Positions 2,130 through 55,077 of a stretch of 64,000 bases of DNA are shown piece by piece. The DNA comes from Actinomycetales bacterium. Lineage in GTDB: Bacteria; Actinomycetota; Actinomycetes; S36-B12. The translations under genes and the position numbers were made by a program. The stretch spans positions 1 to 64,000 of the forward strand of contig WGLX01000039.1 in assembly GCA_016125355.1 (NCBI GenBank). The letters run 5' to 3'. The notes beneath the pieces are model-generated. The model searched no databases and had not been told where the DNA came from. It worked only from the letters and a program-made list of their open reading frames with translations. The stretch's first letter is position 1; each line of letters starts with the position of its first letter.

Positions 2130-2135
2130 TAGGGT
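2130..2135 (+). promoter_or_regulatory. -10 box TAGGGT, leaderless start of dnaE
   Basis: TAGGGT ends 7 bases before the GTG at 2143. An earlier in-frame GTG at 2134 lies inside the box and so is unlikely to be used. Confidence 0.55.
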
Positions 2136-2142
2136 GGGGTCC

Positions 2143-5100: not shown

Positions 5101-5679
5101 GACCACCCGCTGCACGGCGCTGAAGGGCTGCTGGCGCAGCTGACCGATCGGTCGATCGCGGCGGTCCTCATGGACGAGCGCGCCGACGGCACGGTCGCCA
5201 CGGTGGGAGGCCTCGTCACCTCGGTGCAGCGCAAGACCACCAAGCAGGGCTCCAGCTGGGCGATCGTGACCCTGGAGGACCTCGAGGGCTCCGTCGACAT
5301 CATGGTGTTCCCCCAGACGTATGCCTCGGTGAGCACCATGCTGGTCGACGATGCCGTGGTCGTCGTCCGCGCCCGCGTGGACCGCAGCGACGACGACGGC
5401 GTGCGCCTCGTGGCGATGGACGTGACCCAGCCCGACCTGAGCGAGGCGCAGTCCGGTCCGGTGCGCGTCTCGATGTCCTCGGTGCGCTGCATCCCACCGC
5501 TGGTCGATCGGCTGAAGGACATCCTGTCCGCGCATCCCGGCACCTCCGAGGTGCATCTGCACCTGACCGGTGGATCCAAGACGACAGTGCTGCGACTCGA
5601 CGACCGCTACCGGGTCACCCCGTCGCCGGCGCTGTACGGAGACCTCAAGGCCCTCCTGGGGCCGACATGCCTGGGATGA
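2143..5679 (+). CDS. dnaE: DNA polymerase III alpha subunit (replicative, DnaE1 type)
   Basis: Catalytic subunit of the chromosomal replicase. The 1178-residue protein has an N-terminal PHP domain (HVHTEYSMLDG at about 8-18) with its metal-ligand histidines. The C-family palm follows, with the GPGRGSAAG motif and the catalytic aspartates in PDIDMDF (about 420), then fingers, a beta-clamp-binding region and a C-terminal OB-fold domain. Length is normal for DnaE1. The start at 2143 follows from the overlapping -10 box and places HLHVHTEYS close to the N-terminus as in homologues. It is a single gene with its own promoter. Confidence 0.95.
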   Translation: MPPSEQFVHLHVHTEYSMLDGAARLPDLFEEAERLGMPAVAMTDHGNLYGAYDFYTKARARGLKPIIGLEGYYAPQGRFERRPYDFGGGFDEGTPDEASAGRGKQSYTHMTLWAENTPGMHNLFRLSSLASLEGYYFKPRFDRELLERYGKGLIGTTGCPSGEVNRWLQAGNYDRALAAAADFRDILGRDNYFVELMDHGLAIERRFREDLLRIAKQLDLPLVATNDLHYVHAGDADTHDVLLCIGTRTTMDDPKRFRFDARDFYVKSASEMRQIWAELPEACDNTLRIAERCDVQFNEGASLMPQFPVPEGESEESWLVKEVERGLHARYRGAVPDEVRRQAEYEVGVIIQMGFPGYFLVVADLVRHAKENGIRVGPGRGSAAGAMIAYALGITELDPMKHGLLFERFLNPERVSMPDIDMDFDERRRADMIRYATEKYGEERVAQIITYGSIKAKAAIKDSARVLGYPYALGDRITKAMPPAVMGKDIPLSGAFDPTHARYGEAAEFRALYESDPDAKKVVDTARGLEGLKRQPGVHAAGVILCREPLLDVIPVWRREQDGAVITQFDMGACENLGLLKMDFLGLRNLTVLDDCLRYIESNRGERIVLEELTLDDPATYELLSRGDTLGVFQLDGGPMRSLLRSMAPDNFEDISAVLALYRPGPMGANAHNDYADRKNKRKPVVPIHPELAEPLADILGDTYGLIVYQEQVMAIAQRLAGYSLGAADLLRRAMGKKKKEILDKEYVPFSEGMRANGYSDDAIKTLWDILVPFSDYAFNKAHTAGYGLVSYWTAFLKANYPAEYMAGLLTSVKDDKDKSAVYLNECRRMGIKVLPPDVNDSDFDFTPRGSDIRFGLSAVRNVGGNVVDSIIATRRRVGRFADFHDFIAKVDASVCNKRVVESLIKSGAFDSLGHTRKGLVTIHEHVVDAAVDIKRAESHGQFDLFGGLEAEGDDAAMPRSEIPIGEWDKTVLLAHEREMLGLYVSDHPLHGAEGLLAQLTDRSIAAVLMDERADGTVATVGGLVTSVQRKTTKQGSSWAIVTLEDLEGSVDIMVFPQTYASVSTMLVDDAVVVVRARVDRSDDDGVRLVAMDVTQPDLSEAQSGPVRVSMSSVRCIPPLVDRLKDILSAHPGTSEVHLHLTGGSKTTVLRLDDRYRVTPSPALYGDLKALLGPTCLG

Positions 5680-24928: not shown

Positions 24929-25024
24929 GCGCGGGCGGGCCAACGTCGTCCCGCACCACTGGCAGCTCGGCCCTCCCGGGCCCCCGCCTCGGCGGCGCTG
25001 TCACGGACGACGACAAGGATGGCC

Positions 25025-31011
<5,987 letters not shown>

Positions 31012-31041: not shown

Positions 31042-32475
31042 ATGCGTCGCGCGAAGATCGTTGCCACCCTCGGACCGGCCACGAGCACCCTGGAGGACAT
31101 CCGGGCCCTCGTGGACGCCGGGATGGACGTCGCCCGGCTGAACCTGTCCCACGGCAGTCACGACGTGCACGAGAAGGTCTACGCCAACGTGCGCCGGGCG
31201 TCGGACGACTCCGGTCGCGGCGTCGGTGTCCTCGTCGACCTCCAGGGGCCGAAGATCCGCCTCGGCACCTTCGCCTCCGGCCCGGTGCTCCTGGAGAACG
31301 ACGCCGAGTTCGTCGTCACCACCGAGGACGTGCCCGGCGACAGGGAGATGGTGTCGACCACGTACAAGGGGCTGCCGGGCGATGTCCGGCCCGGCGACCT
31401 CGTGCTCGTCGATGACGGGCGCGTGGAACTGAAGGTCACCAAGGTCGACGGGCCGCGGGTGCACACCCGGGTCATCGAGGGTGGCCGCGTCTCCGACAAC
31501 AAGGGCTTCAACCTGCCCGGTGCGGCGATGAGCGTTCCGGCACTGTCCGAGAAGGATGTGGCGGACCTTCGCTGGGCGCTGCGCATCGGGGCCGACCTCA
31601 TCGCGCTGTCCTTCGTCCGCTCGGCCGCCGACATCGTGGCGGTGCACGAGATCATGGACGAGGAGGGCGTGCGCCTCCCGGTGCTGGCGAAGATCGAGAA
31701 GCCGCAGGCGATCGACAATCTCGAGGAGATCATCGCCGCCTTCGACGGCGTGATGGTCGCGCGAGGAGACCTCGGCGTCGAACTGCCCCTCGAAGCGGTT
31801 CCGCTCGTCCAGAAGCGGGCGGTCCACCTGTGCCGCGAGGCCGGCAAGCCGGTCATCGTGGCCACCCAGATGCTCGACTCGATGGCCACGTCGAACCGAC
31901 CCACCCGCGCCGAGGCGAGCGACGTCGCGAACGCCGTGCTCGATGGGGCGGATGCCCTCATGCTGTCGGGAGAGACCAGTGTCGGCGTCCACCCACCGCA
32001 CGTCGTCGACACGATGAGCCGGATCATCGAGCACGTCGAGTCCGCTGCCCTCCACGAGCTCCCCGATCTCTCGGACCCCTGGACCGGCTCGACCGCGCGC
32101 GCCCTGACGCACGCGGCCGTCGACGTCGCCGACGGTGTCGCCGCGACGCACCTGATCGCCTTCACCGAGACCGGCTCGTCAGCCCGCCTGATCGCCCGCT
32201 GGCGCAGCCGGACCCCCATCCTCGCCTTCACCCCGAATCCCCGGGTGCGCAGCCAGCTGGCCCTCGTGTGGGGCGTCGAGACCTTCCTGGTGAGCAAGGC
32301 CAGCCACACGGACGACATGGTCGTGATGGTCGACAAGGCGCTGCTGGAGATCGGTCGGGCGAGCTACGGCGACCGCGTCGTCATCGTCGCCGGGGTGCCC
32401 CCGGGAATCCCGGGCACGACCAACGGCATGCGCGTCCACAAGATGGGCAGCGCGGGGCCGGCCGGCGGCGTCTGA
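31042..32475 (+). CDS. pyk: Pyruvate kinase
   Basis: Last ATP-yielding step of glycolysis. The 477-residue protein starts RRAKIVATLGPATS, has RLNLSHG, the active-site IEKPQAIDNLEEI with catalytic Lys, MVARGDLGVELP, and VATQMLDSM. A C-terminal allosteric domain is present (about 345-477). It has its own promoter, a possible LacI-type operator, and a strong hairpin right after the stop, so it is probably monocistronic. Confidence 0.96.
   Translation: MRRAKIVATLGPATSTLEDIRALVDAGMDVARLNLSHGSHDVHEKVYANVRRASDDSGRGVGVLVDLQGPKIRLGTFASGPVLLENDAEFVVTTEDVPGDREMVSTTYKGLPGDVRPGDLVLVDDGRVELKVTKVDGPRVHTRVIEGGRVSDNKGFNLPGAAMSVPALSEKDVADLRWALRIGADLIALSFVRSAADIVAVHEIMDEEGVRLPVLAKIEKPQAIDNLEEIIAAFDGVMVARGDLGVELPLEAVPLVQKRAVHLCREAGKPVIVATQMLDSMATSNRPTRAEASDVANAVLDGADALMLSGETSVGVHPPHVVDTMSRIIEHVESAALHELPDLSDPWTGSTARALTHAAVDVADGVAATHLIAFTETGSSARLIARWRSRTPILAFTPNPRVRSQLALVWGVETFLVSKASHTDDMVVMVDKALLEIGRASYGDRVVIVAGVPPGIPGTTNGMRVHKMGSAGPAGGV

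Positions 32476-37137: not shown

Positions 37138-37138
<1 letters not shown>
35975..37138 (+). CDS. carA: Carbamoyl-phosphate synthase small subunit
   Basis: Glutaminase subunit supplying ammonia to CarB. The 387-residue protein has an N-terminal CPSase small-chain domain with [16 protein letters not shown] and a class I amidotransferase domain with [22 protein letters not shown] (nucleophile Cys about 255) and [16 protein letters not shown] 35975 has GGGAG 7 bases upstream; GTG 35972 is in frame but poorer. It shares one base with carB (TGATG). Confidence 0.95.
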
Positions 37139-40457
<3,319 letters not shown>

Positions 40458-40458
<1 letters not shown>

Positions 40459-41312
40459 TGGCCGTCCAGGTGCGAGGAGAGATCCTCGACGTCCGGCGCT
40501 CGGGTGCGTACCACGTGCTGTCGCTGACGGCCCCGGGCATCTCCGAGGTGACCCGGCCCGGGCACTTCGTGAACCTCGCGATCGGTGGCGAGGAGTCGAG
40601 CATGCTGCTGCGCCGGTCCTTCGCGGTGCACCAGGTGCAGTCCCGCGGCGTCTACGGCGGCACGCTGGACATCGTCGTCAGCGTGAAGGGCAACGGCACG
40701 CGCTGGCTCGCCGACCGACGCCGCCACGATGCCATCGACATCGTCGGGCCGCTCGGCCGTCCGTTCGTCCTGCCCAAGGAGCGGGTCAACGCCGTGCTCG
40801 TCGGCGGCGGCTACGGATCGGCCCCGCTGTTCATGCTCGCCGAGCAGCTGCGCGAGCGCGGCTGCCGGGTCGATGTCGTGGTGGGCGCCGGAACCGAGGA
40901 GAAGCTCTTCGGGACCCTCGAGCTCAAGCGCCTCGCCTCCACTCTGACCGTGACCACGGACGACGGATCCCTGGGGGAGCGCGGCCTGGTCACGGACGTG
41001 CTGCCCGATGTCATGGATCGGGTCAACGCCGACGTCGTGTACGCCTGCGGCCCCATGCCGATGCTCGCCTCCGTGGCCCGGATTGCCGAGGAGCGCAAGG
41101 CGTACTCGCAGTGCGCGGTCGAGGAGGCCATGGCCTGCGGCATCGGCGTGTGCATGACATGTGTGCTCCCGGTCGTCGGCCAGGACGGGATCACCCGGAT
41201 GCTCCGGTCGTGCACGGAGGGCCCGGTGTTCCGCGGTGACCGGGTGCGCTGGTCCGAGATCGGCACGATCCCGCCCGACACCCTCGGCGCACCCGTGCAG
41301 GGAGGTCACTGA
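40458..41312 (+). CDS. pyrK: Dihydroorotate dehydrogenase electron-transfer subunit
   Basis: The 284-residue FAD and [2Fe-2S] protein passes electrons from PyrD to NAD. It has a flavin-reductase-like N-terminal barrel with LLRRSFAVH (FAD site), a nucleotide-binding VGGGYGSAPLF, and the cluster motif CGIGVCMTC with a later Cys in RSCTEG. This pattern fits PyrK of class 1B enzymes. The GTG overlaps the carB stop with GGAAGGGG upstream. Together with pyrD it defines an NAD-linked dehydrogenase. Confidence 0.9.
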
Positions 41313-42337
41313 TGACGCGCGCACTCATCTCCCAGGGCCCCCTGCCGGGCCAGGACCCGCTGCCCCCGGTCGACATGTCCACCCGCCTCGGCGACCTCGA
41401 GCTTCCGAGCCCGGTGGTCACGGCCTCCGGAACGGCGGCCGCGGGTCGCGAGTTGGACCAGTTCTTCGACATCACGAGCATCGGCGCCGTGGTCACGAAG
41501 AGCGTGATGCTGCAGCCCCGCAGCGGCCGCCCGACACCGCGCATGGCGGAGACGCCGAGCGGCATGCTCAACTCGATCGGCCTGCAGGGGCCCGGGATCG
41601 ACCACTTCATCGAGCATGACCTGACGTGGCTCAGCGAGCGGGGGGCCCGCACGATCGTGTCGATCGCGGGCGGCACCGTCGATGAGTTCTCCAAGCTCGC
41701 TGCCCGGCTCCGGACCGTTCGGGGCGTGGCGGCCATCGAGGTCAACATCTCGTGCCCCAACGTGGAGAACCGTGGGCTGGTGTTCGCCTGCGAGACCGGG
41801 TCGGCCTCCGATGTCGTCCAGGCGGTGAAGCGTCACTCCGACCCGCGCATGCCGATCTTCGCGAAGCTGTCTCCCGACGTCACCGACATCGTGTCGATCG
41901 CGCAGGCCGTGGTCCGTGCGGGTGCCACGGGCGTCTCGGTCATCAACACCCTCCTCGGCATGGTCATCAACACCGACACCATGCGTCCGCACCTCGCGGG
42001 CACCACCGGCGGCCTGTCGGGGCCGGCGATCCGGCCGGTGGCCGTGCGCTGCGTGTGGGACATCCGGCAGGCTTTCCCCGACCTGCCGATCATCGGCATG
42101 GGCGGTATCCGCAACGGCAACGATGCGCTCGAGTTCATCCTGGCGGGGGCGAACGCGGTGGCGGCGGGGACGGTCATCTTCCACGATCCCTCGTCGCCGA
42201 TGAGGATCCACAACGAGCTCCAGCGCGCGCTGGCGGGGCACGGCTTCAGCCGACTGCAGGATGCCATCGGCTACGCGCATCGCCCTGCGGACCCCGAGCC
42301 CGAGCCCGACGACGACTTCGACTTCATCACGGAGTGA
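41312..42337 (+). CDS. pyrD: Dihydroorotate dehydrogenase, class 1B catalytic subunit
   Basis: FMN enzyme oxidising dihydroorotate to orotate. The 341-residue protein is longer than usual through a 20-residue N-terminal extension and an acidic tail. It has [32 protein letters not shown] with the class 1 pattern, [10 protein letters not shown] and [21 protein letters not shown]. Absence of a membrane anchor and the adjacent pyrK argue for class 1B. GGAGG lies 6 bases before the ATG. Confidence 0.93.
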
Positions 42338-42339
42338 CG

Positions 42340-43062
42340 GTGACCACTACGACCTACGCCCCCATCGCCGTCGCCATGGACGCACCCTCCCTGTCGGCGG
42401 TCTCCACCTGGACGGAGGCCGTCGCCCCGGTGGTCTCGACCGTGAAGGTGGGGCTCGAGGTGTTCTGCCGTGAGGGGGCGGACGCCGTCACAGCGGCCCG
42501 CACGGCGGCGACCAGCGCCGGGCATCCGGACATCGGTGTCTTCCTCGACCTCAAGCTGCACGACATCCCGGCGACGGTGGGCGGTGCGGCGCGCGCGGTG
42601 GCGGGCCTGCGCCCGACCTACCTCACGGTGCACGCCTCCGGGGGCCCGGAGATGATCGCGGCCGCGGTGGCCGCCCTACCCGAGTGCCGGATCACGGCGG
42701 TGACCATCCTCACCTCGCTCGACGAGGAGGCCCTGGACCGCGTGGGCCTGGCCGGCCCCGCGGGGGCCGCGGCCGTGCGTCTGGCCCGGCTGGCCGTCGA
42801 GGCCGGCGCCGGCGCGATCGTGTGCTCTCCTCAGGAGGTGGCCGCGATCCGCGCGGTGGTCCCGGACGACATCGTCCTCATCACCCCCGGGGTACGACCG
42901 GCGGGCGCGAGCCTGGATGACCAGAAGCGGGTGGCGACTCCCGCCCGGGCGATGGCGGACGGGGCCGACCTGCTGGTGATCGGGCGTCCGATCACGGGGG
43001 CGGCGGACCAGCGTGCGGCAGCGGTCGCCATCGCCGCCGAGCTGGCAGGCGAGTCGGCGTGA
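42340..43062 (+). CDS. pyrF: Orotidine 5'-phosphate decarboxylase
   Basis: Last step to UMP. The 240-residue TIM barrel has the Asp-Lys-Asp motif in [15 protein letters not shown] (about 62-76), [17 protein letters not shown] and [12 protein letters not shown] 42340 has GGAG 5 bases upstream; GTG 42334, overlapping the pyrD stop, is an alternative. It overlaps mihF by 4 bases (GTGA), so pyr expression reaches into the mihF-gmk genes. Confidence 0.94.
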
Positions 43063-43394
43063 CGACCCCGCCACGGTCCTCCGAGCAGAGGGCCGACGCG
43101 CTCGCGGCGGCCCATCAGACCCGGCAGGAGCGGGCCCGGCTGCGGGCTGCCCTGAAGGCCCGGGAGCTCACCGGCCTCGACGTGCTCCTCGGGGCAGCCG
43201 AGCATCCGGCCTGGGCATCGGCGCGGGTCTCCTGGCTCCTGCAGAGCCTGCCGGGGGTCGGCGCCGTCCGGGCGGAGCGGATGATGTCCGAGCTGGGCAT
43301 CGCCCCCTCCCGGCGGATCCAAGGGCTCGGGGAGCGGCAGCGCGCTGCCCTCGTCGAGCGGCTCGGGCAGCGCGAGGCAGGGAGCGACGCATGA
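43059..43394 (+). CDS. mihF: Actinobacterial integration host factor
   Basis: The 111-residue basic DNA-binding nucleoid protein is of the actinobacterial type, unrelated to enteric IHF. It has a charged N-terminal helix (about 8-50) and a helix-two-turn-helix/HhH region with [22 protein letters not shown]. Placement between pyrF and gmk is standard in this phylum. It overlaps both neighbours (GTGA, ATGA). Confidence 0.93.
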
Positions 43395-43954
43395 CCGCCC
43401 CGCTGGTCGTCGTCTCCGGCCCGTCGGGGGTGGGGAAGAGCACCGTGGTGGCCGAGGCCCTCGCCCAGGACCCGGGCATCTGGCTCTCGGTGAGCGCCAC
43501 CACGCGGGCACCCCGACCGGGGGAGCAGGACGGGCGGGAGTACTTCTTCGTCAGCCCGGAGCGGTTCGACGAGCTGGTGGCTACCGACGGACTCCTCGAG
43601 TGGGCCGAGTACGCGGGCAACCGCTATGGGACGCCTCGCGCCGCCGTGGAGGAGCGCCGGGAGGCCGAGGTGCCGGTGCTGCTCGAGATCGAGGTCCAGG
43701 GCGCCCGCCAGATCCGCGAGGCCGTGCCGGGCGCTCTCCTCGTGTTCCTTGCGCCCCCGTCCTGGGAGGTCCTGGAGGACCGACTGACCGGCCGAGGGAC
43801 CGAATCGCCCGAATCGGTCGAGCGCAGGCTGCAGGCGGCCCGAGAGGAGCTGGCCGCCGCGGGGGAGTTCGACACCGTGCTCGTGAACGCCGATGTCCGG
43901 GAGTGCGCGCAGGCCTTGATAGCATTGGTGGCCGATGCGCACCGGAATTCCTGA
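43391..43954 (+). CDS. gmk: Guanylate kinase
   Basis: Phosphorylates GMP to GDP. The 187-residue protein has the P-loop [10 protein letters not shown] (about 9-18), [20 protein letters not shown] (GMP-binding), [13 protein letters not shown] and [12 protein letters not shown]. It is coupled to mihF by ATGA. A TAGCAT box (43920-43925) inside its 3' end could drive rpoZ. Confidence 0.95.
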
Positions 43955-43998
43955 TCGCTGCTGCATCCGTATCCATTACCACTGAATGAGGCCGTGAC

Positions 43999-44313
43999 GT
44001 GAGCAGTGCCATCCGCCCCGAGGGCATCACCCATCCCTCGATCGACGAGCTGCTGGAGAAGACCGACTCCAAGTACTCCCTGGTGATCTACGCGTCGAAG
44101 CGGGCCCGTCAGATCAACGCCTACTACTCCCAGCTCGGCGAGGGCCTCCTGGAGTATGTCGGGCCCCTCGTGGAGACCCACCTGCAGGAGAAGCCGCTGT
44201 CCATCGCGCTTCGTGAGATCGACGCCGGCCTCCTGACCAGCACCCCGATCGCCGAGGGCGAGGCGGCCGACGTGGTCGCGTCCGCCGACGTCGACGCGTC
44301 CACGGACGAGTAG
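43999..44313 (+). CDS. rpoZ: RNA polymerase omega subunit
   Basis: The 104-residue protein stabilises RNA polymerase assembly. It has [32 protein letters not shown], typical of actinobacterial omega. The acidic Ala/Asp-rich tail is common in this group. GTG 43999 gives a normal N-terminus. It has a 44-base gap from gmk, and coaBC starts 3 bases after its stop. Confidence 0.94.
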
Positions 44314-44316
44314 TCC

Positions 44317-45534
44317 ATGTCCGCCGCGCCGAAGGTCGTCCTCGGCGTTGCCGGCGGCATCGCGGCCTACAAGGCCTGCGAGGTCCTAAGGGGCCTCACC
44401 GAATCCGGGGCGGACGTGACCGTTGTCCCGACCGAGGCGGCCCTGCGCTTCGTGGGCGCGGCCACGTGGTCCGCCCTCTCCGGCAAGCCCGTCAGCACCG
44501 ACGTGTGGACGGGCGCCGATCGCGTGCCCCACGTCCGCCTCGGCCAGCAGGCGGATCTCGTCCTCGTCGCACCCGCGACGGCAGACCTGATCGCCCGGGC
44601 CACCCACGGCCTGGCCGACGACCTGCTCACGAACATCCTGCTCACGGCTCGCTGCCCGGTCGTGCTCGCGCCCGCGATGCACACGGAGATGTGGGAGCAT
44701 CCGGCCACCCAGCACAATGTGGCCACCCTGCGGGCACGAGGCGTGCTCGTGCTCGACCCTGCCGTGGGACGCCTGACGGGCGCAGACACCGGCCCGGGGC
44801 GCCTGCCGGACCCCGCAGCCATCGTGGCGGCGGCCCACGACGTCCTGCGCCGGGGTGGCCTCCCTGACGACCTCGCCGGCCGCCGGGTGGTCGTCAGCGC
44901 GGGCGGCACGCAGGAGGCTTGGGATCCGGTGCGCTACCTGGGCAATCGCAGCAGCGGGCGGCAGGGGGTGGACCTGGCGCGCACGGCGATCTCGCGCGGA
45001 GCCGAGGTCATCCTGGTGGCGGGCAGCATGGACGTCGAACCACCGGCCGGTGCGCGCGTGGTCCGAGTCGTGTCCGCGGAGGACATGCGCCGCGCCATGC
45101 ACGACGAGGCTGCGGCCGCCGACGTCATCGTCATGGCCGCTGCGGTGGCCGACTTCCGGCCGGTCGCCGCCGGCGACGAGAAGATCAAGCGGGGAGACGG
45201 ACCTCAGGATGTGAGCCTCCCGCTCACGCAGAACGTCGACATCCTCGCCGAGCTCGTCGCGAAGCGCGGGGGAGCGGCCCGTCCCGTCATCGTTGGCTTC
45301 GCGGCCGAGACCGGGTCGGCGGGCAAGGACGTCCTGACCCTCGGCCGGGAGAAGCTGGCCCGCAAGGGCTGCGACCTGCTGGTCGTCAATGACGTGTCCG
45401 GCGACAAGGTGTTCGGACAGACGGAGAACGAGGTGGTCATCCTCGGAGCGGATGGCTCCGAGCTGCCCGTCGCCCGCACCTCCAAGGCCGGCATCGCCGA
45501 CGCGATCTGGGACGCGGTGGTCGCACGGCAGTGA
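44317..45534 (+). CDS. coaBC: Bifunctional phosphopantothenoylcysteine decarboxylase/synthase
   Basis: Two steps of coenzyme A synthesis. The 405-residue protein has an N-terminal flavodoxin-like CoaC domain with GVAGGIAAYKACEV and LAPAMHTEMWEHPA (active-site region) and a C-terminal CoaB domain with VVVSAGGTQEAWDPVRYLGNRSSG and a later NDVSGDKVFG. No Shine-Dalgarno is evident; translation is probably coupled to rpoZ. The usual neighbour metK is displaced 3.3 kb by an accessory pair. Confidence 0.94.
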   Translation: MSAAPKVVLGVAGGIAAYKACEVLRGLTESGADVTVVPTEAALRFVGAATWSALSGKPVSTDVWTGADRVPHVRLGQQADLVLVAPATADLIARATHGLADDLLTNILLTARCPVVLAPAMHTEMWEHPATQHNVATLRARGVLVLDPAVGRLTGADTGPGRLPDPAAIVAAAHDVLRRGGLPDDLAGRRVVVSAGGTQEAWDPVRYLGNRSSGRQGVDLARTAISRGAEVILVAGSMDVEPPAGARVVRVVSAEDMRRAMHDEAAAADVIVMAAAVADFRPVAAGDEKIKRGDGPQDVSLPLTQNVDILAELVAKRGGAARPVIVGFAAETGSAGKDVLTLGREKLARKGCDLLVVNDVSGDKVFGQTENEVVILGADGSELPVARTSKAGIADAIWDAVVARQ

Positions 45535-45542
45535 TGCGTCGG

Positions 45543-45548
45543 TAGTCT
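45543..45548 (+). promoter_or_regulatory. -10 box TAGTCT for the pepsin-like gene
   Basis: It predicts a start near 45555 and a leader of about 33 bases with TGGAG before the GTG. Confidence 0.45.
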
Positions 45549-45587
45549 CCCGGACGTCGCTTCGAATGTCTCCCTCTGGAGTTGCCT

Positions 45588-46637
45588 GTGTGCCGCCGTG
45601 CCTGGCTGACCGTGGCCGGTGCGGCCGCTGTCCTCGCCCTCCTCATCCCGCCGGGATCCGCGGCGGTCGCTGATGAACCCGCGCCGCTGAACGGAGGACA
45701 GGCGGCCAGCAGCCAGCCGGTCACCGTCGATGTTCCGATGCCCACGGTTCCCGCGCCCGGACGCCAGGGAATGAACGGCGTCGTCGAGATCCGGGTCGGA
45801 CGCTCTGCGCCCTTCCTCGTCATGGTCGACACGGGGTCGGTCGGCCTGCGGGTCTTCCCCGGGGCCTGGGGGTCCACGCCGCGAGGCGTCACCCTCACCG
45901 ACCAGCGCCTGCAGACGGGCACGGGCGGCGATGCGTTCCGGGGCCTCCTCGGCCGGTCCCCCCTGACGATCGGTGGGGTGACCACCACGCGGGCCATCGG
46001 CTTCCAGTACGTCAACACCGATGCGGCGATCATCCGCGGCTGGGCGGCGAAGCGCGTCTACGGGATCCTCGGCATCGGCACCGGACGGTATCGACTGGCC
46101 AACCCGCTGTCCGCCCTCCCCGGGGAAGCGGGCCTGCGCTGGAGCGTCCACCTGGGCGGGGACCCGCTGACTCGGCGCTCCGGCATGGGGCACCTCGTCC
46201 TGGGCGCCCGGCAGCCCACCTCGGCGATCGCCAGCTTCCAGCTCCCGCCGCTGGGACCCGACGGCTACGGTGCGCTGCTCTGGGACGACCACAAGGCGCC
46301 CGGCTGCTGGACGTTCGGGACGATGCGCGAGACCTGCGTCGACACCTGGTTCGACTCGGGTTTCCACCCGATGCGCGTCAAGGGTGCGGACTTCCGACGG
46401 GTTCCCGTCAATGCGGCGGGCCAGGTGCGCCCGGGGACGTCGATCGCGCTGGCGGATGTCGGCAGTGCCTTCGAGGCCTGGCGCTTCCGCGCCGGCCGCA
46501 CGGCATCGGCGGACCAGGTCCGCATCCTCGCCAAGGGCCGTCCCGGGATCAACACGGGCAACGCCCCCTTCTTCCGCTTCACGGTGTCGTACGACGTCGC
46601 GAACGGGCTGGTCAGCCTGTCCGACCGGCGTGGCTGA
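45588..46637 (+). CDS. Secreted pepsin-like (A1-type) aspartic protease candidate
   Basis: The 349-residue protein starts at GTG 45588, 6 bases after TGGAG; a TTG at 45582 is less likely. A Sec signal peptide covers about 1-29. The mature part has MVDTGSVGLRVF (D81-T-G-S), YGILGIGTG (about 159-165, resembling the pepsin DGILGLG motif) and WFDSGFHPM (D256-S-G) after C240 and C250. Two Asp-(Thr/Ser)-Gly motifs about 175 residues apart in a single chain fit a bilobal pepsin fold. Function is inferred from motifs; related DUF3443-type proteins may be inactive. It lies upstream of a sulfatase gene by 69 bases, probably on the same transcript. Confidence 0.65.
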   Translation: MCRRAWLTVAGAAAVLALLIPPGSAAVADEPAPLNGGQAASSQPVTVDVPMPTVPAPGRQGMNGVVEIRVGRSAPFLVMVDTGSVGLRVFPGAWGSTPRGVTLTDQRLQTGTGGDAFRGLLGRSPLTIGGVTTTRAIGFQYVNTDAAIIRGWAAKRVYGILGIGTGRYRLANPLSALPGEAGLRWSVHLGGDPLTRRSGMGHLVLGARQPTSAIASFQLPPLGPDGYGALLWDDHKAPGCWTFGTMRETCVDTWFDSGFHPMRVKGADFRRVPVNAAGQVRPGTSIALADVGSAFEAWRFRAGRTASADQVRILAKGRPGINTGNAPFFRFTVSYDVANGLVSLSDRRG

Positions 46638-46706
46638 CCGACCTCGGATCGCCACCTCCTTCCACCCCGCCTCTGCCAGCCCGACCGACGACGACAGGAC
46701 ACTGAC

Positions 46707-48701
46707 GTGGACAACGAGAACCCCGACTACACCGGCATCGATCCCGCCCTCCACGACCCGAGGTCAGCACGGCTGAGCCGTCGACGCCTGCTGCAGGCGG
46801 CCGGCGCCGTGGGGCTCGGTGCCGCCGCGTTGGGCGCGGGCGCGCGGACCGCCGAGGCGGCCCCGATGCAGCCCTTCCGCCCGCGAGGCCGACTGCGTCG
46901 CCGCCCCAACTTCCTGATCTTCATGGTGGACGAGATGCGGACCGCACCGTCGTACGAGAGTGCGGAGACCCGGGCCTGGCGTGAGCGGAACCTGCAGGCG
47001 CAGAACTTCCTGCGCCGCAATGCCATGGAGTTCACCAACCACCACATCATGGCCGTCGCCTGCCAGCCGAGCCGCGCATCGATCTACACGGGTCAGTACC
47101 CGACGCTCCACGGCGTCTCGCAGACCTCGGGATCGGCGAAGAGCGCCATCGAGGAGGACCTGTACTGGCTGCAGCCCGGGACGGTCCCGACCCTGGGCAA
47201 CTACTTCCGTGCGGCCGGCTACGACACGTACTGGAAGGGCAAGTGGCACATCTCCGACGGGGACATCTACCAGCCGGGCAGCTACAACCCCCTGCCCAGC
47301 TACAACGCCAACGGCGTGCGCGATCCCTACCTCGAGAGCGTCTACGAGGAGGCCGGGATGCTCGAGCAGTACGGCTTCACCGGCTGGATCGGCCCCGAGC
47401 CGCACGGCAGCAACCCGCTGAACTCCGGCTCGTCGGCCCCGGGTGGCCGTGGACGAGATGAGGTGTTCGCGCAGTGGGGGATCGAAAAGCTCCTGCAGCT
47501 GCGCAACTCGACCAAGCCGTGGCTGCTGGTCAACTCCTTCGTGAACCCGCACGACATCACGCTGTGGGGAGATCTCACGCTGGCCGCCCAGACGTTCTAC
47601 CTCGACCAGCAGCTCCTCGGCTCGGACGTGCCGCGGAACCTGTTCACCCCCGAGTACGCCGCGTCGCAGAACGAGGACCTGTCCGGCAAGCCGACGGCCC
47701 AGGGCTCCTATCGCGACCAGTACCCGCTCGGCTTCCAGCCCCTCGCCGGGCACGAGCCGTACCAGCGGTTCTACTACCAGCTCCAGAAGAACGTCGATGA
47801 CCAGATCTCGCGGGTAATCAAGGTCCTGACGGCCGACAAGGCGCAGTACCGCGACACCATCGTGGTCTTCCTGTCCGACCACGGCGAGCAGCTCGGTTCG
47901 CACGGTGGCCTGTTCCAGAAGTGGTCCAGCGCGTACGACGAGACCGTCCGGGTGCCGTTCCTGTTCCACAATCCCATCCTCTTCGACCGGGCTGAGCAGT
48001 CCGATCTCGTGACGAGCCATGCGGACTTCCTGCCGACCATGCTGGGCCTGGCCGGCCTGGACGAGGAGGTCCTCCGCAAGGAGCTGCGCACGACCCACAC
48101 GGAGGTACAGCCGCTGGTGGGCCGGGACCTGTCCGGCTACCTCCTCGGCGAGAACGACGGCTCGCAGCACCGTGGCGAGTCGGTGTACTTCATGACCGAC
48201 GACCAGATCTTCAAGGGCATGAACGCCGTCTCCTGGAAGGGCACCGAGTTCACGCCCGTCGAGCAGCCCGCCAGCCTGGAGGCCGTCTTCATGGCCCTGC
48301 CGACCGGCCCGGCCGGTGAGCGGGAGATGTGGAAGCTGGTCCGGTACTTCGACAACCCGGACTTCTGGACCTCGCCCGGGGTCCAGGACGTGCAGACGAT
48401 CATGAAGGGCCGGGTCAACGAGCCCGGTCCGAAGGTCGGGTTCACGACCGTCAAGGCGCTGCAGCCCACTGGCGATCAGGTCGGGCCGGCCCCGGACGAG
48501 TGGGAGCTGTACTGCACGAGCCGGGACCCGATGGAGTTGAGCAACCTGTACGGGAACCCCGACTACGGACCCCAGCTGGAGATCCTCCTGGCCGAGCTGA
48601 ACGCGCAGAACGCGGCCAAGCGCCGGACGCCGACCAATGAGCCCTGGGCGGACGGCTCGGCCATCCAGTTCGGGTTCAACCCGGCGGTGCCGATCCCCTA
48701 G
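46707..48701 (+). CDS. Tat-exported type I sulfatase
   Basis: The 664-residue protein has a twin-arginine signal (SRRRLLQ at 24-30, hydrophobic to about 45). The alkaline-phosphatase-superfamily sulfatase domain has NFLIFMVDEMR (metal Asp75), ACQPSRASIYTGQYPTLHG with C119-x-P-S-R, the formylglycine motif, and FLSDHGEQLGSHGG (metal Asp/His). Maturation needs a formylglycine-generating enzyme, not seen here. The substrate is unknown; sulfated sugar or steroid esters are typical. The GTG start has AGGACA upstream. It is inserted between coaBC and metK. Confidence 0.88.
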   Translation: MDNENPDYTGIDPALHDPRSARLSRRRLLQAAGAVGLGAAALGAGARTAEAAPMQPFRPRGRLRRRPNFLIFMVDEMRTAPSYESAETRAWRERNLQAQNFLRRNAMEFTNHHIMAVACQPSRASIYTGQYPTLHGVSQTSGSAKSAIEEDLYWLQPGTVPTLGNYFRAAGYDTYWKGKWHISDGDIYQPGSYNPLPSYNANGVRDPYLESVYEEAGMLEQYGFTGWIGPEPHGSNPLNSGSSAPGGRGRDEVFAQWGIEKLLQLRNSTKPWLLVNSFVNPHDITLWGDLTLAAQTFYLDQQLLGSDVPRNLFTPEYAASQNEDLSGKPTAQGSYRDQYPLGFQPLAGHEPYQRFYYQLQKNVDDQISRVIKVLTADKAQYRDTIVVFLSDHGEQLGSHGGLFQKWSSAYDETVRVPFLFHNPILFDRAEQSDLVTSHADFLPTMLGLAGLDEEVLRKELRTTHTEVQPLVGRDLSGYLLGENDGSQHRGESVYFMTDDQIFKGMNAVSWKGTEFTPVEQPASLEAVFMALPTGPAGEREMWKLVRYFDNPDFWTSPGVQDVQTIMKGRVNEPGPKVGFTTVKALQPTGDQVGPAPDEWELYCTSRDPMELSNLYGNPDYGPQLEILLAELNAQNAAKRRTPTNEPWADGSAIQFGFNPAVPIP

Positions 48702-48716
48702 CGGAGCGGCGTCCGG

Positions 48717-48722
48717 TATCCT
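48717..48722 (+). promoter_or_regulatory. -10 box TATCCT for the metK riboswitch transcript
   Basis: It predicts initiation at about 48729, exactly at the first base of the riboswitch fold. Confidence 0.6.
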
Positions 48723-48729
48723 TCACCGC

Positions 48730-48840
48730 GGTCAAGAGCACCAGCGCACAGCCCCGGCTTGCTGGTCGGCAACCCTCCATCGCGGTGGGGTGCTCCGGGT
48801 GAGGACCAGGCCCCGACCGGGGCAAGCGCGAGTCCGCCCG
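48730..48840 (+). ncRNA. SAM-IV riboswitch upstream of metK
   Basis: The sequence follows the SAM-IV (SAM-I superfamily) layout. P1 is GGTC with GACC, and P2 is CCAGC with GCTGG. The SAM-binding core is CGGCAACCCTCC, and P3 is GGTGGGG. The stretch TGCTCCGGGTGAGGACC follows, then the CCCCG/CGGGG stem and the terminal GCAAGCGCGAGTCCG that forms the pseudoknot. The class is known from actinobacteria. It lies 33 bases before metK and probably represses it when S-adenosylmethionine is high. Confidence 0.9.
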
Positions 48841-48873
48841 GGCTGCGAAGTCATGTGAGAGTGAGGAACGTAC

Positions 48874-50124
<1,251 letters not shown>

Positions 50125-50130
50125 TCCGAC

Positions 50131-50136
50131 TAGGTT
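50131..50136 (+). promoter_or_regulatory. -10 box TAGGTT, leaderless start of priA
   Basis: It ends 8 bases before GTG 50145, and no Shine-Dalgarno lies between. Confidence 0.5.
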
Positions 50137-50144
50137 CGCTCGAT

Positions 50145-52148
50145 GTGACCGAGGCCGAGCAGCTCCCGCTCCTTCCGGAGCGCGCTGCTCGGCCTCGGCG
50201 CGTTCGCGGGCCCGTCCCGCTCGCGGAGACGGACCCGGTCGCACAGGTCGTCATCGACTCCCCGCTGCCGCACCTGGACCGTGTCTTCGACTATGCCGTG
50301 CCCGCCGCGCTCGACGAGCGGGCCAGGGTCGGGTGCCGGGTCCGGGTCCGGTTCGCCGGCAAGCTGACTGACGGCTACCTGATCGGACGGACCGCGGAGG
50401 CCGACCACGGGGGAGAGCTCCGGCCCCTCGAGCGGGTCGTCGGAACGGACCTCGTCCTCGAGCCCGGGATCCTGGTGCTGGCCCGCGAAGTGGCCCAGCG
50501 CTACGCGGGCACGGTGAGTGACGTGCTCCGCGCGGCGATCCCGCCGAGGCACGCCCGTGCCGAGGCGGTCGAGGTCGAGCCGTCCACGTGGACGGCCGAG
50601 GCGGATTCGATCGACGCGGAGCGCTGGTCCGCCTACGACAGCGGCCCCGCCCTGCTGCAGCGGCTGGCGGATCCCGGGGCGGCCCCGACCCGCGCCGTGT
50701 GGTCGCTCGCGCCAGCGACCCGGTGGGTCGACGATGTGGCCGCGGCGGTCCGGGCCGTGCTCGCGCAGGACCGCGGGTCGGTGGTCGTCGTCGTGCCGGA
50801 CGCGCGCGATGTCGCGGCGGTGCTGGACCGGTTCGAGGATGCGGTTCAGGCGGGCGCTGTGGCGACGCTGACAGCCGACCTCGGCCCGGAGCGGCGGTAC
50901 CGTGAGTTCCTGCGGATCCTGCGGGGCGGTGCGCGCCTGGTGGTCGGCACCCGGGCCGCGGTGTTCGCGCCGGTCGTGGACCCGCGACTGCTCGTGCTCT
51001 GGGACGACGGCGACGACGCCCTCTGCGAGCCACATGCGCCCTACTGGGACGCGAGGGACGTCCTCGCCCTGCGGGCGCACCTCACCGGTTGCGACCTGCT
51101 GGTCGGCTCGCCCGCTCGCTCGGTCGTCACCGAGCAGTGGTGCCGGACGGGGTGGGCGCGGTCGGTGCAGGCGACCCGGACATCCGTCGGCGAGCGTGGC
51201 CCGCGGGTGCGCGCGCTCGCCCGGGAGGATGCCGCCCGAGACCCGGCCGCGGCTGCCGCACGCATCCCGCATCCGGCATGGCAGGCGGCGCGCTCGGCGC
51301 TGGAGCGCGGGCCCGTCCTCGTCCAGGTGCCCCGACGCGGCTACCTGCCGATGCTGGCCTGCCAGCGGTGCCGTGAGCCGGCACGTTGCACGTGCGGCGG
51401 TCCCCTGCGGATCGCCGGGGCGGGAAAAGTCCCGTCCTGCGAATGGTGCGGCACCCTCGTGGGGGACTGGCGCTGCCGGGAGTGCGGCGACCGCCGGTTG
51501 CGCGCGGTGAGCGTCGGCGTCGAGCGCACAGCGGAGGAGATCGGGCGGGCCTTCCCCGGCGTGCCCGTCGTCTCCAGCCACGCGGGACGGATGGTGGGCG
51601 AGGTCGACGACCGGCCCCAGGTCGTCGTGGCCACGCCCGGCGCCGAGCCGCGCTGCGCGGGCGGGTACCGAGGCGTCCTCCTCCTCGATGCCCGGGCGCA
51701 GTTGCAGCGCCCGTCCCTCGAGACCACCGAGGACACGGCCCGGAGGTGGTTCGCGGCCGCCGCGCTGGCCGAGCCGGGCGGGCAGGTCGTCGTCACGGCG
51801 GACAACGCCCTGCCGATCGTGCAGGCGCTGCTCCGCTGGGACGCCCCGTGGCTGGCCGACCGGGAGCTCGCCGAGCGCTCCAGCGCGGGCCTGCCGCCGG
51901 CTACCCGGATGGCGGCACTGCTCGGGGCGGCCGCGGACATCGAGGACGTCGCACGGGCGCTCACCGTCCCGCACCGGCTGCTCGGCCCGGTCCCGCGCGA
52001 GGGCGAGGACCGGCACCGCGGCCTGGTCGTGGTCGCTCGCGAGGACGGTGCCACCCTGGCGACGCAGTTGCGGGCGATCACGGCCACGCGGTCGGCGCAG
52101 TCGAAGACGGCCCCCGTCCACGTCCGGCTGGACCCCCGCGACCTCTAG
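50145..52148 (+). CDS. priA: Replication-restart protein PriA, actinobacterial helicase-degenerate form
   Basis: The 667-residue protein has the N-terminal PriA DNA-binding domain with VVIDSPLPHLDRVFDYAVP (about 36-54) and the Zn-binding cysteines CQRC, CTC, CEWC and CREC (about 405-450). The helicase core is degenerate: no GxGKT Walker A is present and the Walker B region reads VLWDDGDDAL instead of DEEH. Actinobacterial PriA proteins are known to lack helicase motifs and are thought to act structurally at restart sites. It sits in its usual metK-priA-def-fmt order. Confidence 0.9.
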   Translation: MTEAEQLPLLPERAARPRRVRGPVPLAETDPVAQVVIDSPLPHLDRVFDYAVPAALDERARVGCRVRVRFAGKLTDGYLIGRTAEADHGGELRPLERVVGTDLVLEPGILVLAREVAQRYAGTVSDVLRAAIPPRHARAEAVEVEPSTWTAEADSIDAERWSAYDSGPALLQRLADPGAAPTRAVWSLAPATRWVDDVAAAVRAVLAQDRGSVVVVVPDARDVAAVLDRFEDAVQAGAVATLTADLGPERRYREFLRILRGGARLVVGTRAAVFAPVVDPRLLVLWDDGDDALCEPHAPYWDARDVLALRAHLTGCDLLVGSPARSVVTEQWCRTGWARSVQATRTSVGERGPRVRALAREDAARDPAAAAARIPHPAWQAARSALERGPVLVQVPRRGYLPMLACQRCREPARCTCGGPLRIAGAGKVPSCEWCGTLVGDWRCRECGDRRLRAVSVGVERTAEEIGRAFPGVPVVSSHAGRMVGEVDDRPQVVVATPGAEPRCAGGYRGVLLLDARAQLQRPSLETTEDTARRWFAAAALAEPGGQVVVTADNALPIVQALLRWDAPWLADRELAERSSAGLPPATRMAALLGAAADIEDVARALTVPHRLLGPVPREGEDRHRGLVVVAREDGATLATQLRAITATRSAQSKTAPVHVRLDPRDL

Positions 52149-52151
52149 CCC

Positions 52152-52226
52152 GTTTCTCCCACGTCGCGGGACAGGTGAGCCAAAGGAGACCGTTATGCCT
52201 CATCTCTCCCACTACGTGGGACAAAC
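52152..52226. repeat. Nested palindromes between priA and def (REP/BIME-like)
   Basis: Two 19-base copies, TCTCCCACGTCGCGGGACA (52155-52173) and TCTCCCACTACGTGGGACA (52205-52223), share 16 bases, and each is itself palindromic. The 30-base arms 52152-52181 and 52197-52226 also pair with each other (24 of 30 plus a G-U). The 15-base loop carries AAAGGAG. It may be a terminator, an operator or a mobile REP pair. Confidence 0.6.
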
Positions 52227-52237
52227 GAGGGGCGGCC

Positions 52238-52243
52238 TAGACT
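52238..52243 (+). promoter_or_regulatory. -10 box TAGACT, leaderless start of def
   Basis: It ends 6 bases before ATG 52250. Confidence 0.6.
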
Positions 52244-52249
52244 CGCGGC

Positions 52250-52795
52250 ATGGCCATCCAGCCCATCCGCCTGTTCGGCGATCCCGTCCTGCGCACCCCC
52301 GCGGCGCCCGTCGAGACCTTCGACAAGGAGCTCCGCAAGCTCGTGAAGGACCTCACCGAGACCATGATGGACGCCCCCGGTGCCGGCCTGGCCGCGCCGC
52401 AGATCGGCGTCTCCCTGCGGGTGTTCACCTACTGGGTCGACGACGAGCCCGGTCACCTCGTCAACCCCGACCTCGACCTCTCCGAGGAGCAGCAGGATGG
52501 CGAGGAGGGGTGCCTGTCCCTCCCCGACCTGTCCTTCGACACGAAGCGGGCGAAGCGCGTCGTCGCCAAGGGCTTCAACATGTGGGGCGAGCCGGTCGTC
52601 ATCGAGGGCAGTGATCTCCTCGCGCGGGCCGTCCAGCACGAGACGGACCATCTCGACGGGATCCTGTTCATCGACCGGCTCGACGCGGAGATGCGCAAGG
52701 AGGCGATGCGCCAGATCCGTCAGGCCGAGTGGTTCGGCGAGCCCGCGCCAGCGGTGCAGATCAGCCCGCACGCCATCTCCTCCAAGTGGCTGTAG
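52250..52795 (+). CDS. def: Peptide deformylase
   Basis: Metallohydrolase removing the formyl group from nascent proteins. The 181-residue protein has all three motifs: GAGLAAPQIG, EEGCLS (metal Cys) and QHETDHLDG (HExxH). Paired with fmt, which adds the formyl group to initiator tRNA, 3 bases downstream. Confidence 0.96.
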   Translation: MAIQPIRLFGDPVLRTPAAPVETFDKELRKLVKDLTETMMDAPGAGLAAPQIGVSLRVFTYWVDDEPGHLVNPDLDLSEEQQDGEEGCLSLPDLSFDTKRAKRVVAKGFNMWGEPVVIEGSDLLARAVQHETDHLDGILFIDRLDAEMRKEAMRQIRQAEWFGEPAPAVQISPHAISSKWL

Positions 52796-52798
52796 CTG

Positions 52799-53722
52799 GT
52801 GCGCTGCCTGTTCGCCGGCACTCCTGACGTCGCGGCGGTGTCGCTCAGGGCCCTGCTCGAGTCCGAACACGAGGTGGTCGCCGCCCTCACCCGGCCGGAT
52901 GCCCCCGTCGGCCGCGGCCGCACCCTGGCACCCTCGCCCGTCGCGGCGCTCGCCGAGGAGGCGGGCGTCGAGGTGCTCAAGCCGGGCTCGTTCCGCGACC
53001 CGGGGCTGCTGGAGCGGCTGTCCGCGCTTCAGCTCGACGTGGCGCCCGTCGTGGCCTACGGAGGCCTGGTGCCGGCACCGGCGCTGACGCTGCCGAAGCA
53101 CGGCTGGGTCAACCTGCACTTCTCGCTCCTGCCCGCGTGGCGGGGCGCGGCCCCGGTCCAGCACGCCATCTGGCACGGCGACGACATCACCGGCGCGAGC
53201 ACCTTCCTCCTGGAGGAGGGCCTGGACACAGGCCCGGTCTTCGGCACCGTGACCGAGGCGATCCGCCCCGACGACACGTCGGGGGACCTGCTGGGGCGCC
53301 TCGCCCAGGCAGGGTCGGGGCTGCTGGTCGCCACGCTCGACGCGATCGCCGCCGGCCGGGCGCACCCGGTCGCCCAGGTCGGCGACCCGACGTACGCGGG
53401 GAAGATCACCGTCGAGGACGCGCGCATTCGCTGGGACCACCCTGCCGTCGGCGTCGACCGGCAGGTCCGCGCCTGCACCCCGGCGCCGGGTGCGTGGACG
53501 ACCTGCCGTGGTGACCGCCTGGGCATCGGCCCCGTGCGCCAGGCACCGGACGTCGAGCCCCTTCCCGTAGGACGGATCCGCGTGACCAAGCGCGAGATCC
53601 TCGTCGGCACCGCCACCGTTCCCGTTCGGCTCGGCTCGGTGCGCCCTCCCGGGAAGCGGGAGATGCCCGCGGCCGACTGGGCGCGGGGCGTACGGCTGAC
53701 GGCCGAGGACGTCCTGTCATGA
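52799..53722 (+). CDS. fmt: Methionyl-tRNA formyltransferase
   Basis: Uses 10-formyl-THF to formylate Met-tRNA(fMet). The 307-residue protein starts [18 protein letters not shown] and has [16 protein letters not shown] (catalytic region) and GLDTGPVFG; a C-terminal tRNA-binding domain follows (about 205-300). The GTG start lies 3 bases after def. It overlaps rsmB by 4 bases (ATGA). Confidence 0.95.
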
Positions 53723-55077
53723 CCGACCGCCCGCGGGCCGCCGCCCTCGAACTGCTGCGCGCCGTCCGCGAGGACGAGGCCTACGCGAACCTGGCGCTCC
53801 CGCAGATCGTGCACGGCTTCGGGCTGACGGGGCGTGACGCAGCGTTCGCCACGGAGCTGTCCTACGGCACGCTGCGAGGCCTGCGCTGGTACGACGCCGT
53901 GCTCGCCGAGTGCGTGACCCGCTCGTACGACAAGGTCGAGCCGGCCATGAAGGACGTCCTCCGGCTCGGTGCCCATCAGCTTCTCGCCATGCGGGTCCCC
54001 GCGCATGCCGCGGTCGACTCGTCCTGCACGCTCGCGCGCGATCTCGGTGCCAAGCCGGGCGCGGATGCGCGCGCGGGCTTCGTCAACGCCGTCCTGCGCA
54101 AGGTCGCCCAGCGCGATGCCGCGGAGTGGGCGGCCCAGCTGCAGCGTGACGCGGATCCTGACGACCCCGACTGGCTCGGCGTCCGGTGGTCGCATCCCAC
54201 GTGGATCGTCCGGGCCTTCCGCGATGCGCTCGGACCCCGCCAGGCGGAGCTCATCGACGTGCTGCAGGCGGACAACGCGGCCGCCCGGCCCTCGCTCGTG
54301 GCGCGCCCCGGCCGTATGACGTCGGAGGAGCTGATCGAGCTGCCCGAGGTCGACCCCGGACGCTGGTCGCCACTGGCCGGGCTCCTCGTCGAGGGCACGC
54401 CGGACATGCTGGCCTGCGTCCGAGACGGGCGCGCCGGTGTGCAGGACGAGGGCAGCCAGCTCGTGGCACTGGCGCTGACGCGCGTCGAGGTGCCCGACGA
54501 CCACGGTCGCTGGCTGGACATGTGCGCGGGGCCTGGCGGCAAGGCTGCGCTCCTCGACGGTCTCGCCCAGGAGCGCGGCGGCTCCCTGCTGGCGGTCGAG
54601 CAGCACCCCCACCGGGCCGAACTCGTGACCCGGTCGTTCGCACCTGGGTCCGCCTCGCGGGTGGTCGTGGGCGATGCGCGCCACGCGCCCTGGGGTGACG
54701 AGCTCTTCGACCGGGTCCTCGTCGATGCGCCCTGCACCGGTCTCGGCGCACTGCGTCGGCGTCCTGAGGCACGCTGGCGCCGCACGACGGCGGACCTCGC
54801 GGCGCTCGGGGGACTTCAGCGCGACCTGCTGCGGACGGCGGTGTCGGCCGTCCGCCCCGGAGGCGTGGTGGGCTACGTCACCTGCTCCCCGCACCTGGCC
54901 GAGACCGAGTTTGTGGTCGCCGACGTCCTCCGCGGTCGCGACGACCTGCAGCTGGTGGACGCGAGGCCGCTGCTGCCCGAGGTGGAGGATCTCGGTGACG
55001 GCCCGACGATCCAGCTGTGGCCGCATCGGCACGGCACGGACGGGATGTTCCTCGCGCTGATCCGCCGATCGGGGTGA
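53719..55077 (+). CDS. rsmB: 16S rRNA m5C methyltransferase (RsmB/Sun)
   Basis: The 452-residue protein has an N-terminal NusB-like RNA-binding domain (about 1-140) and a SAM-dependent methyltransferase domain with [37 protein letters not shown] (Cys) and [13 protein letters not shown] (catalytic Cys). It modifies C967-type positions in family members. It is the last gene of the metK-rsmB block, convergent with the next gene with 15 bases between stops. Confidence 0.94.

Follow-up and report, generated by a model that had tools for sequence, protein, structure and literature searches.

The window, a stretch of 64,000 nucleotides from an Actinomycetales bacterium (contig WGLX01000039.1), encodes at positions 45588-46637 of the forward strand a 349 aa protein with a predicted pepsin fold. 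Its gene is one half of a two-gene unit with a sulfatase gene, which is new here. The best explanation is an exported endopeptidase of the PecA type that forms a unit with the sulfatase, and we give this reading a probability of about one half. The pepsin fold, the invariant aspartates and the conserved gene pair are computed results.

The protein starts at a GTG codon. A GGAG, the likely ribosome binding site (45578-45581, forward strand), is located six bases 5' of this codon, and the GTG is therefore preferred over a TTG at 45582. Approximately the first 28 residues (45588-45671, forward strand) resemble a signal peptide by hydropathy, with a cleavage site estimated by eye. In the structural model, most of residues 1-37 have a pLDDT below 50. 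The original prediction had called the chain secreted, and the hydrophobic N-terminal stretch, which is typical of signal peptides, supports export. Of 85 genomes from the same family, 44 contain a relative; this count includes the genome of the window. Compared with three near relatives (L021, L022 and L023), dN/dS is approximately 0.21-0.27 and changes are found mostly at third codon positions. On these two grounds, the reading frame is regarded as a genuine gene, and it is clearly under purifying selection.

The gene order is coaBC (44317-45534), protease, sulfatase (46707-48701) and metK (48874-50124), and the identities of coaBC and metK are backed by Pfam. Elsewhere, the window seems to contain core genes. 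Pfam identifies dnaE, glutamate synthase and pyruvate kinase in it (segments among 2134-5679, 25019-29569, 31042-32475 and 37138-55077), and the genes that we presume to be carB, pyr genes, gmk, rpoZ, priA, def and fmt were named by eye from their translations. A promoter scan returned no promoter-like site. A terminator scan returned one terminator-like site on the opposite strand, no more than expected by chance, and a repeat search between 45400 and 48900 yielded just short two-copy families.

The AlphaFold2 model of the protein, built on a 25-row alignment (A1, from which L045 was omitted as a near copy of L030), has a pLDDT of 89.5 and a pTM of 0.85. In Foldseek, the C-terminal domain of PE_PGRS16 (4EHC) is the top match (E 1.6e-13, TM 0.61/0.75), and plasmepsins, fungal pepsins and renins come next. 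VIA-align superimposes 262 residues on 4EHC (Z 25.0, 2.8 Å, 18% identity) and 270 residues on human pepsin 1PSN (Z 24.8, 2.8 Å); the Z values for 4EHC, human pepsin and other pepsins are so close that they are treated as ties. The same relationship appears when the profile of alignment A1 is used by sequence alone: Aspergillopepsin (2.5e-4) and polyporopepsin (4.2e-4) are both recovered, and the alignment to polyporopepsin runs through both Asp and places D256 on its second DTG. The profile also matches 4EHC weakly in the first lobe (5.2e-3). A search of solved structures with the single sequence gave only a nanobody (E 0.18), so that the profile is needed for a match at this level. The pepsin-like nature claimed originally hinged on a bilobal structure. 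The predicted fold is bilobal, as in peptidase family A1, and we consider the pepsin fold almost certain.

The nearest named family is Pfam PE-PGRS_C (PF20729) of mycobacterial PecA and PE_PGRS16. Judged by sequence, the protein passes marginally, with 33.5 bits against a gathering cut-off of 33 and over profile positions 2-132 of 265 only; in a six-frame genome search with PF20729, the same place scores 26.1 bits and stays under the cut-off. All 25 rows of alignment A1 match PE-PGRS_C at E 1 or better (best 1.2e-11). A kinship with DUF3443 (PF11925), also proposed at the outset, does not hold as a family assignment for the window protein: The two are similar around the first Asp, but the protein reaches 10 bits (E 0.39) against a cut-off of 25. 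DUF3443 matches 15 of the 25 rows at E 1 or better (best 1.1e-6). Pfam Asp (PF00026), which had been suggested as a check, finds nothing in the window protein up to E 10 and matches four of the 25 rows weakly (best 0.015). Some distant relatives (L040, L043 and L096) do pass the DUF3443 cut-off. L095 (5918-7978, reverse strand) and L096 (6841-8028, forward strand), which belong to two other families of the class, have both Asp motifs, and the score of L096 links DUF3443 and PE-PGRS_C.

Membership in PecA proper was rejected, since the equivalog model NF038019 yields 13.8 bits against a curated cut-off of 150. A PecA protein would be expected to contain a PE domain itself or to have PE substrates encoded in its genome. 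At E 0.1, no PE domain was found in the window's genome, nor is there one in the protease, and a mycobacterial-type context was rejected on this ground. Given the marginal PE-PGRS_C score, the distance to the PecA model and the genome without a PE domain, the protein is to be placed by its sequence in a branch of its own within the PecA/PE_PGRS16 superfamily, one characterised by a signal peptide. PE-PGRS_C is found at E 0.001 in 23 of 296 genomes of the class, in 10 of them over the cut-off, and all strong copies lie within one family (f9), which we take to be the mycobacteria. Among 14 control genomes, only Deinobacterium chartae has a match. The profile of alignment A1 finds relatives in 22 of 394 genomes of the class and in 3 of 296 of the phylum.

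A family-wide search yielded 49 protease places in the 44 genomes, 40 of which could be assessed for their neighbour. Seven places cut by contig ends were set aside (L024, L039, L091, L115, L117, L119 and G028:C77), as was L118, a fragment whose downstream 2.4 kb contain neither a second half nor a sulfatase; G731:C39 is not among the 40 either. At 37 of the 40 places (the window, 20 loci, L090 and 15 further loci), a sulfatase gene is next on the same strand. L111 has an adjacent sulfatase gene in divergent orientation, and L041 and L112 have none within the sequence at hand. All three exceptions carry the motif DSM. The protease of one of the 37 pairs, L103 (G323), contains an in-frame TAG. 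The candidate sulfatase start lies between -4 and +15 bases from the protease stop at 27 of 34 loci measured; in the window, the gap is 69 bases. Genomes G002 and G033 each hold two protease-sulfatase units. Most loci differ from one another in what flanks the pair, and the pair itself stays. At five loci (L021, L022, L023, L028 and L034), two conserved genes precede the pair. In L028, one of these codes for a response regulator, and the product of the other resembles a histidine-kinase ATPase weakly, at a score under the cut-off; four of the five loci have an extra small protein without Pfam match upstream. The near-constant pairing in the lineage suggests that both gene products work as a unit outside the cell, and a functional coupling of protease to sulfatase is very probable.

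Trees were calculated for 19 of the 22 co-directional pairs of the first set, with L025 and L044 (partial sulfatase) and L090 (partial protease) excluded. The distances in both trees are correlated (Mantel r 0.81, reached in 0 of 5000 permutations) with species phylogeny uncontrolled. Seven of 16 splits are common to both trees, compared to a permutation mean of 0.29 and a maximum of 4. The protease evolves about 1.7 times faster than the sulfatase. Main clades agree, and both trees put the two copies of G033 in different ones. Two conflicts exist: The protease tree puts L038 with L032 and the sulfatase tree puts it with L026/L027, and L028 and L034 are sisters in the protease tree only.

The partner gene (46707-48701, forward strand) encodes a 664 aa protein with a sulfatase domain (PF00884, 137.5 bits against a cut-off of 25). 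Its N-terminus has a twin-arginine motif (SRRRLL) followed by a hydrophobic stretch; library models for Tat signals score under their cut-off. The structural model of the sulfatase has a pLDDT of 66. The active-site motif C/S-x-P-S-R is present as CQPSR, beginning at C119 (47061-47075, forward strand). Ten residues (C119, P121, S122, R123, K179, H181, D391, H392, H399 and K405) are invariant in 18 of 18 sulfatase rows and are, from the sequence, of catalytic type. All 38 adjacent sulfatases with the motif covered have CQPSR (22 and 16 in two locus sets). By contrast, among nine non-adjacent orthologues (at least 50% identity, motif covered, no adjacent protease), seven have CAPSR and two CQPSR. 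One of these two is L079, from genome G030, which has a protease at another place; the other, L082, is cut 80 bases upstream. For L084, with less than 300 bases upstream, the absence of a protease is unsure.

In the preferred reading, the window protein would be an aspartic endopeptidase of the PE-PGRS_C/PecA type whose single chain forms two lobes. It would be exported by a signal peptide as a free protein that has no PE or PGRS part. As in pepsin, D81 and D256 would lie opposite one another in the cleft and there activate a water molecule. Both proteins would be synthesized from one transcript, and the sulfatase would exit by the twin-arginine route. Export, catalysis, joint work outside the membrane and a shared substrate are what we infer. 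The two enzymes would most likely share one extracellular target, a sulfated protein or glycoprotein: The protease would cut the chain and the sulfatase would remove the ester. Whether they share a substrate or one partner acts on the other is finely balanced. We lean to the shared substrate, because the sulfatase shows no extended propeptide and is also encoded at places where no protease adjoins it.

If one partner acts on the other, the protease might trim or activate the exported sulfatase, as PecA trims LipY. The pairing evidence (37 of 40 places, tree agreement, close starts) applies equally to this explanation. Moreover, PecA cuts exported enzymes at the cell surface, among them itself and the co-secreted lipase LipY, as described in the part of PMC6819658 available here. 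However, just about 15 residues (approximately 52-66) lie between the twin-arginine signal and the sulfatase domain, whose Pfam match begins at residue 67, so that no long propeptide is seen, and orthologous sulfatases occur without adjacent protease. We therefore rate sulfatase processing as a minority possibility.

All sequence features named in the original prediction are present. D81-T-G-S (45828-45839, forward strand) aligns with the first DTG of aspergillopepsin and polyporopepsin, and D256-S-G (46353-46361, forward strand), 175 residues further on, with the second DTG of polyporopepsin. One D-T/S-G motif is found in each lobe, as in family A1. YGILGIG (residues 158-164; 46059-46079, forward strand), which falls on strand 157-163 of the model, provides the hydrophobic-hydrophobic-Gly motif of the lobe-1 psi-loop with its ILG. 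The corresponding place in lobe 2, assigned from the secondary structure of the model, would be occupied by I321-N-T-G (46548-46559, forward strand), which is not hydrophobic-hydrophobic-Gly. The Cys pair before the second Asp (C240 and C250; 46305-46337, forward strand) is invariant and probably forms a disulfide. Alignment A1 has 17 query columns, counting M1, without any variation across its 25 rows; since D81, T82, C240, C250 and D256 belong to them, the motifs are beyond chance. The neighbouring positions vary: G83 is kept in 24 rows, S84 in 18 (F in six), S257 in 21 and G258 in 16 (A in six, V in two, M in one).

In a pattern scan of 48 loci, the 42 loci that span both sites all have both Asp, and the remaining six are cut or partial. 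Ten of the 42 combine DTGF with D[SA]A, two have DSV, three DSM and one DTAS. The DTGF loci are exactly the D[SA]A loci and form one clade, which indicates that both lobes changed together; enzymes of this subclade (L030, L036, L037, L039, L042, L044, L045, L109, L110 and L115) are, by these motifs, possibly inactive or altered. In L038, the flap segment is deleted and both Asp motifs are retained. The window protein itself has no Tyr within the modelled hairpin 102-124, where family A1 has the catalytic flap Tyr (Tyr75). In our alignment, F259 and N325 fall where pepsin has Thr218 and Asp303. According to the consulted sections of PMC2761423, loss of this pair goes along with a near-neutral pH in renin, and by analogy, the pH optimum of the protease may be near-neutral.

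Alternatively, the window protein might be a non-proteolytic binding partner or chaperone of the sulfatase that kept fold and aspartates for structure. The missing flap Tyr, the atypical second psi-loop, the DTGF subclade with D[SA]A and the flapless L038 fit this explanation and argue for caution about activity. In the text at hand from PMC2761423, Rawlings and Bateman judged bacterial homologues without psi-loop motifs likely inactive, and according to the portions of PMC6819658 and PMC7550000 used here, PE_PGRS16 proved to have no proteolytic activity. On the other hand, both Asp are kept in every one of the 25 rows, even in those of the altered subclade, and the motifs of the window protein are canonical. 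PecA, which has the same domain, is an active surface protease of mycobacteria whose Asp mutant is dead, as reported in the accessible part of PMC6819658. A non-proteolytic role is therefore doubtful, and the window's version is probably an active protease.

The activity of the sulfatase is another matter. In sulfatases, the Cys of the motif is normally turned into formylglycine, as stated in the excerpt of PMC3141025. The window's genome (96% complete) has a single PF03781 locus, which was rejected as formylglycine-generating enzyme, since it is EgtB and adjoins EgtD; TIGR03942 has no match and no anaerobic maturase (anSME) was found in this genome. Because a recognised maturation enzyme is lacking, the partner may not be an active sulfatase. 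In a set of 59 genomes, five of the 20 with the pair have some PF03781 match, none of them stronger than 1e-40, compared to 15 of the 39 others, nine of them stronger than 1e-40. Genomes with such a match include G006, G013, G022 and G033. The excerpt of PMC3141025 notes FGE-independent sulfatase activity in M. tuberculosis and ascribes it to other sulfatase types. A mutually dependent system, in which the CQPSR sulfatase is active without known formylglycine-making enzyme and the protease aids its maturation or assembly outside the cell, would be a long shot. Still weaker is the view that the protease is a general scavenging enzyme in a merely inherited neighbourhood: The tree comparison lacks a control for species phylogeny and the DSM-motif clade (L041, L111 and L112) lost or flipped the arrangement, but the persistence of the pair between differing outer flanks, the duplication of paired units within genomes and CQPSR in 38 of 38 adjacent sulfatases render it highly improbable.

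How does the PecA-type protease with its sulfatase compare to known systems? It shares with PecA (PE_PGRS35 and its M. marinum homologue) the PE-PGRS_C domain, the DTG/DSG motifs, the pepsin fold and the predicted location outside the membrane. However, PecA relies on a PE domain and type VII secretion for its transport, and its targets are PE proteins, whereas the window protein has a putative signal peptide, a sulfatase partner, a genome without PE domain and a PecA score far under the cut-off. PE_PGRS16, whose C-terminal domain is the best structural match, carries it as a domain of a PE_PGRS protein; the window protein is free-standing and has the invariant Cys pair. With family A1 (pepsin, plasmepsins, fungal pepsins), it has in common the two lobes, the two Asp motifs and the lobe-1 psi-loop motif, but it lacks the flap Tyr and a Pfam Asp match and has INTG in the second psi-loop. 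Shewasins and other bacterial A1 pepsins are likewise bilobal pepsin homologues, but they have no signal peptides and are cytoplasmic according to the sections of PMC2761423 and PMC4814920 used here; for shewasin D, a cytosolic location is given in PMC4814920. RloA, a secreted retropepsin-like protein of Pseudomonas, is also an exported, operon-encoded bacterial clan-AA protein, but RloA proteases are single-lobed and dimeric in the part of PMC12239564 available. In the openly licensed PMC literature, no paper on a pepsin-sulfatase pairing and none on DUF3443 was found.

The original prediction regarded bilobal pepsins as rare in bacteria and did not mention the sulfatase gene. PecA, a bacterial relative that is exposed at the surface and has demonstrated protease activity, is already in print (PMC6819658, in the portion consulted). 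Bacterial pepsin homologues in print are either cytoplasmic, as the shewasins, or carried by mycobacterial PE proteins, as PecA, and a pepsin fold in an exported bacterial protein is a rarity. The occurrence of a signal-peptide version in non-mycobacterial actinobacteria suggests that the PecA domain has existed, or has been spread, independently of type VII secretion. The near-constant sulfatase partner is a first lead to what such enzymes do.
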